Part shown: in pieces, positions 9,498-63,679 of the stretch
Layout: every line of letters starts with the position of its first letter
Position numbering within the stretch: position 1 is the stretch's first letter
Assembly (NCBI GenBank): GCA_903913285.1
Contig: CAIWKO010000068.1
Location: 1-64,000 of the forward strand
Reading direction: 5' to 3'
Length of the DNA stretch: 64,000 nt
Source of the DNA: an uncultured Bacteroidales bacterium
Lineage (GTDB): Bacteria; Bacteroidota; Bacteroidia; Bacteroidales; CAIWKO01
Position numbers and translations under genes: made by a program
Notes under the pieces: generated by a model
Databases searched by the model: none
What the model was told of the DNA's origin: nothing
The model's input: the letters and a program-made list of their open reading frames with translations, nothing else

Positions 9498-9842
9498 ATG
9501 GTCTTCCTAATGAAAGAAATGATATTCTCAATTGGAAAAAACATATTCTTAATTGGAGGAATGATATTCTCAATTAAAAAAAACATTTTCTTAATTGGAG
9601 GAACGATATTCTCAATTGGAAAATACATTTTCTTAATTGGAGGAACAATATTCTCAATTGGAAAAAACATTTTCTCAATTGGAGGAAAGATATTCTCAAG
9701 TGGAAAAAACATTTTCTTAATTGGAGGAAAGATATTCTCAATTAGAAAAAACATTTTCTCAATTGGAGGAATGATATTCTCAATTAGAAAAAACATTTTC
9801 TTAATTGGAAAAATGATTTTCTTAATTGGAGGAAACATTTAA
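9498..9842. repeat. Tandem array with 21-bp period (CAATTGG...)
   Basis: About sixteen units of 21 bases alternate between two forms. One has ATTCTCAATTGGAAAAAAC and the other TTTCTTAATTGGAGGAA, giving a 42-base higher-order period. Because 21 is a multiple of three and the units lack stops, long frames exist on both strands; on plus these read as repeats of FSIGKNIFLIGG. The composition is too simple to be a credible protein. Each unit holds an AATT or CAATTG palindrome. The array ends about 80 bases before the FnIII-like gene. Confidence 0.9.
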
Positions 9843-9922: not shown

Positions 9923-10573
9923 ATGGTAAATTTAATCAGAGTAAAAAAAAGTTTAGGCAAAGTAAACATTAATGTAAAACTTACAAAAAATCGTAACATC
10001 GTTACGCAAATGCCTCTGCATCCCGAAATCACCATCTGGCCCTATACGGCAGCAGATTATAAAAGTGTATGCGATGAAGTGGATAAAGAAAATCAACTGC
10101 ATTTAACCGGCGATCACGAAGCTACTAAACGGATGCGTATAGCGGAAATTAATATGGATAAGTATTACAGCGGAACCGCCGCTTGTGTAGAAACATTTGC
10201 CAATCAAACCGATGATGCAGCTTTGCCTATCAGCATGGGTTTTGAATTATATTCAGAAAAGAAAGCCCGTTCGCCCAAGAAAATAACCGCCCGCGACGGC
10301 AATGTTGAAGGCGATATCATTGTTGAATATCCTAAGTTGCAGGGAGCAGCCTCTTATGTGTCGCAGATAGCCGAAGTTATTACCGGAAAAGACCCGGTTT
10401 ATTATTTCGACGCAGCCTGCTCTATAACATATATGGTGATACACAACTGTAAGCCCGGTACCAAATATCTGATAATCTTAGCCGCTGTGTATGCAACAGG
10501 CGAAAGTCCGTTCAGTGTTCCTCTCACATTCACAACAGCCCCATCGGTAACCGGGGGAAGGGTTAATGAATAA
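9923..10573 (+). CDS. Hypothetical protein with C-terminal fibronectin type III-like domain
   Basis: I do not recognise a named family for this 216-residue protein. It has no signal peptide, lipobox or membrane segment. The N-terminal ~40 residues are basic (VNLIRVKKSLGKVNINVKLTKNR). Residues ~45-105 look helical and polar, with DEVDKENQLHLTG and KRMRIAEINMDKYY. The C-terminal ~90 residues resemble a fibronectin type III fold (GDIIVEYPKLQGAASYVSQI..., then CKPGTKYLIILAAVYATGES and FSVPLTFTTAP). Similar short helical-plus-FnIII proteins are, as I recall, widespread and uncharacterised in Bacteroidota. It follows the 21-bp tandem array and has its own terminator, so the array plus gene may be one unit. 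Confidence 0.7.
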   Translation: MVNLIRVKKSLGKVNINVKLTKNRNIVTQMPLHPEITIWPYTAADYKSVCDEVDKENQLHLTGDHEATKRMRIAEINMDKYYSGTAACVETFANQTDDAALPISMGFELYSEKKARSPKKITARDGNVEGDIIVEYPKLQGAASYVSQIAEVITGKDPVYYFDAACSITYMVIHNCKPGTKYLIILAAVYATGESPFSVPLTFTTAPSVTGGRVNE

Positions 10574-41003: not shown

Positions 41004-41440
41004 AGTGCCTAAAGTGAACTAGAGTACTTAAAGTGCCTAAAGTAGTTAGCTGAAAGTTTAATATATAAAGTTCAAATTTTGAAGTTATTAATGGTTTTAC
41101 CCCCATTTATTGAAAAAACCCCTATTTATTAAAAAAAAACCGTTAGGTTGGAATAAACCCCCGTTAAGTTGGAGAAAACCCCTGTTAGGTTGGAATAAAC
41201 CCTCGTTAGGTTGGAATAAACCCCCATTAGTTTGGAGAAAACCCCAAACGGAATTTTAGGAAAGTTGGAAAAATGGAATATTGGAGAAATGGAATGATGG
41301 AAAGGCGATGTGTACTTAATTTTATGGGAGGCTGTTTGCCCCCGCGCCAGGGATAGGAACGGAAAGCCCGGAATGGAGCGCAGCGGAATGAGGACTTGAA
41401 GTGTATAGCCCGGCCCGACTTTAGGAGGGGGCGCCCAAAT
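41002..41440 (+). repeat. Dispersed non-coding element, copy A
   Basis: Reading 5' to 3', it starts GAAGTGCCTAAAGTGAACTA. An AT-rich block follows, then a ~21-bp tandem array of GTTAGGTTGGAATAAACCCC-type units (41140-41250). Next is GGAAAGTTGGAAAAATGG, and then a GC-rich core from GGCTGTTTGCCCCCGCGCC to GGGGGCGCCC. Copy B at 52778-53286 is the reverse complement with very high identity over most of its length. Copy A fills the convergent gap between recG and the Nramp gene, and holds no credible open frame. Confidence 0.92.
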
Positions 41441-52777: not shown

Positions 52778-53286
52778 TTTGGGCGCCTCCGCTTCCCAGC
52801 GGACCGGGCTGTCCGCTTATAGTCCTCGCGCCGCTTGCGTGCATCTTCGTCTGGTTTGTACCTTATTTTCAAACTTCAGTCATCTTCAAATAGTTTTGGG
52901 CTGCGGCCGCTGTGGGCTATCCGCTTCCATCCCTGGCGCGGGGGCAAACAGCCTTCCAATAAATTAAGAGCACATCTCCTTTCCATCATTCCATTTCTCC
53001 AATATTCCATTTTTCCAACTTTCCTAAAATTCCTTTTGGGTTTTTCTCCAACCTAACGGGGGTATTCTCCGACCTAACAGGGGTGTTTTCCAATCTAACG
53101 AGGGTTTTCTCCAACTTAACGGGGGGTTTCTCCAACCTAACAGGGGTTTATTCCAACCTAACGGGGGTTTATTCAATAAATGAGGGTAAAACCATTTAAT
53201 AACTTCAAAATTTGAACTTTATATATTAAACTTTCACCTAACTACTTTAGGCACTTTAAGTACTATAGTTCACTTTAGGCACTTCC
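52778..53286 (-). repeat. Dispersed non-coding element, copy B (inverted)
   Basis: Reverse complement of the element at 41002-41440, with the same order of blocks. The 21-bp array is at 53048-53170. The GC-rich core (52778-52940) is ~70 bases longer than in copy A, with extra sequence between the two GC-rich halves. It contains self-complementary stretches such as GCGGCCGC and GGGCGCC. It lies between the sfp promoter and the 3' end of mscS. I see no gene in it. Confidence 0.92.
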
Positions 53287-62790: not shown

Positions 62791-62819
62791 TGTGTTAAAC
62801 ATTAAATTAATTTAACACA
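62791..62819 (-). promoter_or_regulatory. Inverted repeat in the tonB leader
   Basis: TGTGTTAAA and TTTAACACA (nine bases each) flank an 11-base spacer just upstream of the tonB ATG. Confidence 0.55.
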
Positions 62820-62834
62820 ATAATACAACAACAT

Positions 62835-62842
62835 CAAAGTCA
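62835..62842 (-). promoter_or_regulatory. -7-like box (TGACTTTG) for tonB
   Basis: The minus strand reads TGACTTTG, one mismatch to TAnnTTTG, about 60 bases before the ATG. A LytTR-like repeat begins 18 bases upstream. Confidence 0.4.
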
Positions 62843-62860
62843 ATGCAACCGCAAATCAGT

Positions 62861-62910
62861 TAACGGTAGGAAGAAAAAAGCTAACGGTAGGTTTTAGCAA
62901 GTTAACGGTA
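62861..62910 (-). promoter_or_regulatory. Three direct TACCGTTA repeats at 21-base spacing (LytTR-like operator)
   Basis: On the minus strand TACCGTTA occurs at 62910, 62889 and 62868, each followed by A/G then C. The period is exactly 21 bases, two helical turns. This matches the LytTR regulator pattern of paired nine-base sites spaced 12-13 bases apart. Confidence 0.7.
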
Positions 62911-62914
62911 AAGG

Positions 62915-63679
62915 CTATTTTTGTGCCGTAACAAAAAAGTCGAAACAACGTTCATTTGCAGGTTCAATAAAAAAGTCGGAGGTCAGTACTTTTTCAACCA
63001 GAGTGGTGTTCTTTTTCATAAGTTTGTTACGGTTCATACGGTTGGCAAGGTCGTATGGAATCTGTAAAAGTCTCCGTGGCAAAATATATTGTAATCTGAA
63101 AATATCGAAGCGGGTGATTTTCTTTACCGAACGCCTGTTCTCTTCATAATAGGCCATTACTTTCTCGTTCCCGTAAACACCTTTAATATCAAATTCGTCA
63201 AACGTTGCTGAAATAAGTTTAGTGATACCTTCAGGTGTGTATTCACGAACATGCCAGGGGTTTCGCGTCAGCGACATCCTGATATTGGGTGTGGTTAAAA
63301 CCAATATTCCTCCGGGCTTGAGTACGCGTTTTATTTCCTGCAGAAAAAATCTATCGTTTTTAATGTGTTCTATCACCTGAAATGTAACTACAGCATCAAA
63401 ACTATTATCTTCAAGTCCTGCCAGTGGCGGAACGCTCAGCTGAAAGAACTTAATGTTGCCCGAACCGGTTTCCACGGGTGTGGCATGTTTGTCCACAGCG
63501 ATATACGATGTAGCATTGGGCGCTAATATCTTTATTCCGTATCCTTCGCCGCTGCCGATTTCCAGAACATTGCCTTTAATAACCTTCAGCGCTTCGTTGT
63601 ATGCAATTAAATGGCGATGATGTATCACATTATCTTCCGGCAGGGTTCCTGAATTTCGTTCTGCAGTTTTTATACTCAT
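62915..63679 (-). CDS. Class I SAM-dependent methyltransferase
   Basis: The 254-residue protein shows the class I fold: NVLEIGSGEGYGIKILA (SAM loop, ~residue 37), YIAVDKHATP, then FDAVVTFQVIEHIKNDRFFLQEIKRVLKPGG, the typical post-I motif, and LTTPNIRMSLTRNPWHVREY. Methyltransferases of this layout often act on polysaccharide or lipid intermediates. The upstream neighbour on the same strand is a polysaccharide deacetylase 19 bases away, which supports a cell-surface glycan role, but the substrate cannot be named. Confidence 0.9.
   Translation of the reverse strand: MSIKTAERNSGTLPEDNVIHHRHLIAYNEALKVIKGNVLEIGSGEGYGIKILAPNATSYIAVDKHATPVETGSGNIKFFQLSVPPLAGLEDNSFDAVVTFQVIEHIKNDRFFLQEIKRVLKPGGILVLTTPNIRMSLTRNPWHVREYTPEGITKLISATFDEFDIKGVYGNEKVMAYYEENRRSVKKITRFDIFRLQYILPRRLLQIPYDLANRMNRNKLMKKNTTLVEKVLTSDFFIEPANERCFDFFVTAQK

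Follow-up and report, generated by a model that had tools for sequence, protein, structure and literature searches.

LytTR regulons have been studied mostly in Gram-positive bacteria and in Pseudomonas. The parts of the literature available to us describe several systems close to the one considered here. For AgrA, P2 and P3 are immediately preceded by two direct repeats (PMC4227749), and SilA has 10-bp repeats separated by an 11-bp A/T-rich spacer (PMC2766830). LytTR regulatory systems such as HdrRM and BrsRM use 9-bp repeats, most of them spaced by 12 bp, with a marked preference for a position 10 bp upstream of the -35 element, and in an LRS-like operon of Bacteroides thetaiotaomicron 11-bp repeats stand 11 bp apart and 11 bp before TGTA-19 bp-TATCTTTG (PMC6193735). 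A two-component system has also been linked to type IX secretion, namely PorY-PorX-SigP, in which an ECF sigma factor acts on secretion component genes (PMC4800418).

In the window, the whole 64,000-nucleotide stretch of DNA from an uncultured Bacteroidales bacterium that was analysed here, a first-pass annotation had pointed to three LytTR-like direct repeats upstream of tonB. On comparative sequence grounds we consider it probable that positions 62858-62910 form the operator of a LytTR two-component response regulator, likely a protein encoded on contig C5 of the same genome, that would help transcription of tonB to start. Like AgrA and SilA as described in those reports, the candidate protein combines a receiver with a LytTR domain, and its sites are direct-repeat pairs upstream of a promoter; unlike them, the system has a Bacteroidota-type -33/-7 promoter and a Reg_prop propeller sensor, its likely targets are TonB parts and exported proteins, and some of its operators are triple. 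The design is close to that reported for the B. thetaiotaomicron LRS-like operon, whereas the repeat sequence differs from those published for LytTR regulatory systems and LRS-like operons. The regulators of HdrRM and BrsRM are described as pairing with an inhibitory membrane protein, but the C5 regulator is paired with a histidine kinase, and no membrane inhibitor lies beside it, its neighbors being the kinase gene and a plug gene. The likeness to PorY-PorX-SigP, as far as that account extends, lies in the link between a two-component system and type IX secretion, although here a LytTR protein would act, and its likely targets are exported substrates and TonB parts. A literature search, in which subscription journals were thinly covered, found no publication on this operator or regulator, and the nearest match in the sources available was the LRS-like repeats of Bacteroides (PMC6193735). 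Papers matching the 8-mer TACCGTTA numbered 307, and none of the 20 listed seemed related. The system is of a known kind, and this particular LytTR regulon is apparently undescribed.

The probable tonB operator and its promoter

The features of the tonB upstream region are as follows.

62915-63679, minus strand: methyltransferase gene upstream of the tonB operator and outside it
62900-62910, minus strand: distal repeat TACCGTTAACT, starting 5 bp past the stop of the upstream gene
62879-62889, minus strand: middle repeat TACCGTTAGCT
62858-62868, minus strand: promoter-proximal repeat TACCGTTAACT
62846-62848, minus strand: -33 element (TTG), separated by 10 bp from the 9-bp repeat ACCGTTAAC
62818-62825, minus strand: -7 box TATTATTG, with 5 of the 6 letters of the consensus TAnnTTTG
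62813, minus strand: predicted transcription start of tonB, placed from the reported box position of -12 to -5 relative to the start (PMC9723704)
62003-62776, minus strand: tonB, 257 aa, with a TonB_C domain

The three TACCGTTA direct repeats that the first-pass annotation had placed upstream of the -7 box of tonB were recovered on the minus strand at 62910-62903, 62889-62882, and 62868-62861, with a period of exactly 21 bp. The unit is present as annotated, but the repeat proved longer, extending to TACCGTTAACT in the outer copies and TACCGTTAGCT in the middle one. The nearest repeat had also been thought to abut the -33 element, and this did not hold, the TTG at 62848-62846 being separated from it by 10 bp. 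LytTR sites have the base consensus [TA][AC][CA]GTTN[AG][TG], and the tonB repeat fits it at 8 of 9 positions, the last being C rather than T or G. The window contains 4 copies of TACCGTTA against 1.29 expected, three of which are the tonB triplet. With up to 3 mismatches allowed, the pair TACCGTTA-13-TACCGTTA is found 4 times against 0.38 expected, a count reached in none of 100 shuffles, and both exact pairs belong to the triplet.

The genome-wide scan that had been proposed turned up further sites, with 22 occurrences of the exact pair in the 4.0-Mb genome (G000). With 0-1 mismatch there were 25 pairs versus 2 for the reversed pattern used as a control, and at up to 3 mismatches the pattern was lost in noise (118 matches versus 189 for the reversed control), so weak sites are not countable with it. 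One of the 25 pairs was removed as tandem array-like (C54:3089), and the remaining 24 were merged, overlapping or adjacent pairs being counted as one, into 21 promoter places. Their consensus is TACCGTTAACT, about 10 mainly A/T bases, and a second TACCGTTAACT, often with AAATTT ahead. Within the genus, two further species contain 14 and 12 pairs at 0-1 mismatch (controls 6 and 5); at the same threshold, a third relative in the genus (G002) has none, and 11 of 55 other genomes have a single pair each, which is not above control.

The repeats keep a fixed distance to the promoter. In 16 of the 21 places, including tonB, a TAnnTTTG box with at least 5 of 6 letters begins exactly 43 bp after the proximal repeat does; in the other five the offset is 42 bp in one and 52-53 bp in three, and no box was found in one. 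Across 2,000 shuffles, at most 6 places shared any single offset, as opposed to the 16 observed. A TTG-like -33 element occupies positions +20 to +22 (T in 15, T in 16, and G in 11 of 16 aligned sites), from which it follows that the 9-bp repeat generally ends 10 bp before the -33 element, and the complete layout reads ACCGTTAAC-12-ACCGTTAAC, 10 bp, TTG-20-TAnnTTTG. The ACCGTTAAC-12-ACCGTTAAC pair recurs at the 21 places and falls within the LytTR-type range of roughly 9-bp direct repeats with 11-13 bp between them; in 16 of the 21 the pair also keeps a short fixed distance upstream of the promoter, as LytTR-type sites do from the -35-like element. The earlier suggestion of a LytTR-like geometry is in line with this, since the length of the repeats, their spacing, and how far they lie from the -33 element agree with the sites described in the available parts of two reports (PMC6193735 and PMC2766830). 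A sigma-70-type promoter scan returned a single site, on the other strand and at chance level.

The tonB promoters of two relatives in the genus, G001 and G003, have three degenerate repeats with the same 21-bp period and, by eye, TAATTTTG at the same 43-bp offset; that of G002 retains a mere trace of the site. Among 30 loci holding the best tonB match, the operator is clear in 3, all in the genus, marginal in 2 (G015 and G023), and lacking in 22; the other 3 were unreadable or misread (L073 and L086, no gene; L066, other frame taken). The tonB site is a genus-level feature and is clear only inside the genus. This restricted distribution, together with the fact that the direction of control is not readable from sequence, would suit a LytTR response regulator that represses, or that acts mainly elsewhere, so that tonB is not activated. 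We regard this as improbable, as the site lies upstream of the -33 element rather than over the promoter and at a fixed distance from it, like the LytTR activation sites in the available accounts (PMC6193735 and PMC4227749).

Candidate regulator and its co-occurrence with the operator

The first-pass annotation had supposed that tonB is controlled by a LytTR system encoded outside the window, and had proposed correlating such sites with LytTR genes. Fourteen LytTR genes are present, none of them in the window, and control from outside is supported by sites before 4 LytTR genes. A further site directly follows the gene of a LytTR response regulator, and this order is kept in many genera. The product of this last gene, our candidate regulator, is a 248-aa receiver-LytTR protein (G000:C5:10975-11718, on a contig other than that of the window) with matches to PF00072 (75.5 bits) and PF04397 (58.3 bits), both above cut-off. 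The gene ahead of it encodes a 1002-aa protein with Reg_prop, Y_Y_Y, and His_kinase (PF06580, 79.7 bits) domains. The operator starts 31 bp past the stop codon of the regulator and is followed by a gene for a 1220-aa protein with CarboxypepD_reg and Plug domains. In the mechanism we propose, the Reg_prop/Y_Y_Y/His_kinase sensor would, on receiving its signal, phosphorylate the C5 regulator, which would then bind the pair of direct repeats (at tonB, the triplet) that lies just upstream of the -33 element and assist RNA polymerase in starting transcription of tonB. It would also serve about 20 further promoters in G000, including those of the exbB-to-tonB operon and of plug/receptor-like, type IX-type exported, and short LytTR genes.

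We examined 35 orthologue loci of the regulator, of which one was dropped for having no downstream DNA (G189) and another because the regulator runs to the contig edge and the wrong frame was scored (G015). An operator pair lies within 383 bp downstream of the regulator in 32 of the 33 usable loci, above the 99th percentile of 200 shuffles, G212 being the only scored orthologue whose downstream pair fails to exceed the shuffles; a -7 box (5/6 letters) stands at an offset of 41-44 bp in all 33. Fourteen paralogues or non-orthologues served as controls, and once 6 without a recognized gene had been excluded, the operator was found behind none of the 8 scored. A set of named records, mostly metagenome-assembled and titled Bacteroidales, Bacteroidetes, or Bacteroidota, partly overlaps the orthologue set. 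Here the operator follows 17 of 18 relatives that have at least 50% identity and downstream DNA, one of the 17 (L232) having one good half only, and 2 of 61 relatives with less than 50% identity. The kinase gene lies upstream of the regulator in 18 of 19 named loci, the missing one having 31 bp of upstream sequence, and the plug gene lies downstream in 16 of 19, the missing ones having 4, 380, and 723 bp of downstream sequence. One of the two positive relatives below 50% identity (L280, 42%) is accompanied by a pair that resembles the operator but is not the same, CGCCGTTAAC and CGCCTTTAAC. A -7 box stands at 43 bp there as well, and this is possibly a sister regulon.

An operator sequence model was made from 29 sites, 22 from G000 and 7 from G001 and G003. 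Of 247 genomes sampled from the order, 37 are matched by it at E 0.01 and 34 have a match to the regulator at E 1e-80 or better; both occur in 25 genomes, the operator only in 12, the regulator only in 9, and neither in 201 (Fisher 4.9e-18, kinship not corrected for, with G000 and G001 matching the model by construction). Genomes with at least 4 operator sites have the regulator in 10 of 12 cases. The exceptions are G015, with a 208-residue, 57% identical regulator match at a contig end, and G229, with 7 operator sites and a best regulator match of just 38% identity. Another genome (G132) has 18 operator matches, mostly to model positions 2-37, and seems to use a variant operator without the last ACT. 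We also considered whether G002, which has no exact sites, might have no regulator either, and rejected this, as an orthologue is present there, followed by a degenerate pair.

In an alignment of 54 regulator rows, in which the query and L212 are the same protein counted twice and some genomes appear in both sets, the phospho-acceptor Asp is invariant. The DNA-contact motif FhRhHRS retains F, R, H, and S in all 54 rows, and the second R is K in 53; this motif and its role have been described for AgrA in the part of the report available (PMC4227749). A search of solved structures gave no LytTR-DNA complex among the 60 of 150 matches listed, which were aligned over the receiver part or over the further domains of other families.

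The 13 LytTR genes in G000 other than that of the C5 regulator encode proteins that could in principle be alternative binders. Short LytTR-only proteins of about 123-160 aa might be the main binders, controlling tonB and the other targets along with their own genes, with no kinase involved: the operator stands in front of four short LytTR genes, and G002, which alone in the genus has no short LytTR match, is also without strong sites. Against this, G002 keeps its degenerate pair behind the full-length regulator, the operator accompanies the regulator gene across families, and in the contact motif the S is missing in 4 of 4 short proteins and the R in 2 of 4, both being kept in 54 of 54 regulator rows. 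Owing to this altered motif, we rank the short proteins second as main binders and find that role unlikely for them; they are read, from their sequences and promoters, as probable targets rather than main binders.

Genes carrying the operator

At the 21 promoter places in G000, six first genes are TonB-related (TonB/ExbB/plug-type), comprising tonB, the ExbB-led operon, a VIT/VWA/TonB_C protein gene, and three genes with Plug domains. The ExbB-led, or exbB-to-tonB, operon consists of the ExbB gene, two genes that by eye are ExbD-like, and a TonB gene. Four first genes are short LytTR genes (p ~1e-6, assuming 3,400 genes), three are small (about 85 aa), three are of type IX type, one encodes a GWxTD protein, one an adenosine deaminase, and the remaining three are those on C6, C18a, and C51. 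Two of the type IX-type genes have a Por_Secre_tail domain, and that on C54 is assigned through the position of a tail match (G000:C54:17532-17765). At the C6 place (L133), the operator precedes a tRNA-Ser gene, beyond which lies a PBP_like_2 gene. The first-pass annotation had extended the same control to nutrient receptors; the Plug-domain genes and the exbB-to-tonB operon bear this out in part, but the site also precedes genes for type IX-type exported proteins.

Of the ~85-aa genes, one of two scanned has a weak Mga helix-turn-helix match, and since three operator places precede such genes, a DNA-binding protein of another family might use the repeats. This seems very unlikely, given that the LytTR regulator gene is the constant partner of the operator across genera and that the sites have LytTR-site geometry. 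A LytTR response regulator, probably that of C5, is the reading that we carry forward.

For targets elsewhere, we turned to G070, G110, G117, and G209, which represent three families other than that of the window and contain 48 model matches, and read the surroundings of 45 of these. The -7 box lies at 42-44 bp in 32 of the 45 loci. GWxTD genes carry the operator in all four genomes and C54-like genes in G070, G110, and G117, and the operator also occurs at an ExbB gene in G110 and at a C60-like plug gene in G209. Among 20 complete genes hand-picked from 60 loci, with C5-, C18-, C39-, C54-, C56-, and C60-like genes omitted and the second gene taken in L350 and L355, 18 have a type IX sorting domain, a sample that leans toward type IX because 10 of the 20 were already similar to the type IX proteins C26 or C36 and because of the second gene in L350 and L355. 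Genomes with the operator have at least 134-150 Por_Secre_tail matches each, so that the operator seems to be absent from the majority of type IX substrates.

The tonB operator is likely part of a regulon with the C5 kinase-regulator pair as its master, and the regulon is apparently common to many uncultured Bacteroidales-type bacteria. Its interest lies in joining TonB parts with type IX-exported proteins. It is quite possible, if short of probable, that an undescribed propeller-kinase/LytTR global switch, present in many families of the order, links the production of type IX-exported surface proteins to the energy supplied by TonB-ExbB and to a plug protein of the outer membrane, and that in one genus this switch is strengthened by triple operators and by short LytTR genes under its control. 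An operator, its likely regulator, a sensor, and a target list are in this way tied together by sequence alone across many genera, which gives a starting point for learning how TonB parts and type IX-exported proteins are switched on in bacteria that are for the most part uncultured.

The third repeat and 21-bp tandem arrays

Triple operators with a strict 21-bp period were found at 8 distinct places in the examined loci of G000, G001, and G003, including tonB, the VIT/TonB_C gene, and, in G001 and G003, the plug gene that follows the regulator. AAAACC stands ahead of the middle repeat in all 8. Occurrence at 8 places marks the third repeat as a recurring design; it may act jointly with the other two, and might allow the graded binding that the first-pass annotation suggested. 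Period-21 arrays are themselves frequent in G000, and the triplet could be imagined to be one more ordinary 21-bp tandem array. We rejected this, and give it next to no credence: the units of the arrays vary from place to place, whereas the operators share one consensus, a fixed promoter offset, and conservation at related genes in other families.

The arrays, with a period of 21 (or 42) bp and a unit differing by place, are frequent between genes in G000, and we found no paper on 21-bp intergenic repeats in Bacteroidetes. Their period equals that of the LytTR sites. Downstream of 11 of the 12 short LytTR or ~85-aa genes in G000, the exception being C33, such an array is found at a distance of no more than about 1.3 kb, and others lie elsewhere; the array loci are L004, L005, L007, L012, L017, L021, L022, L024, L028, L113, and L118. 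Three arrays occur in the window.

9518-9840: tandem array
41140-41245: tandem array
53038-53170: tandem array

The second and third of these, separated by 12 kb, have a near-identical 21-bp unit in opposite orientation, and their flanks are alike. Several arrays (L017, L021, L022, L024, and L028, and 9923-10570 in the window) are followed by a gene whose product has up to about 200 aa; the one such protein scanned, of 191 aa on C43, gave no Pfam match. The operator, the small gene, the array, and this following gene together look like a repeated cassette.
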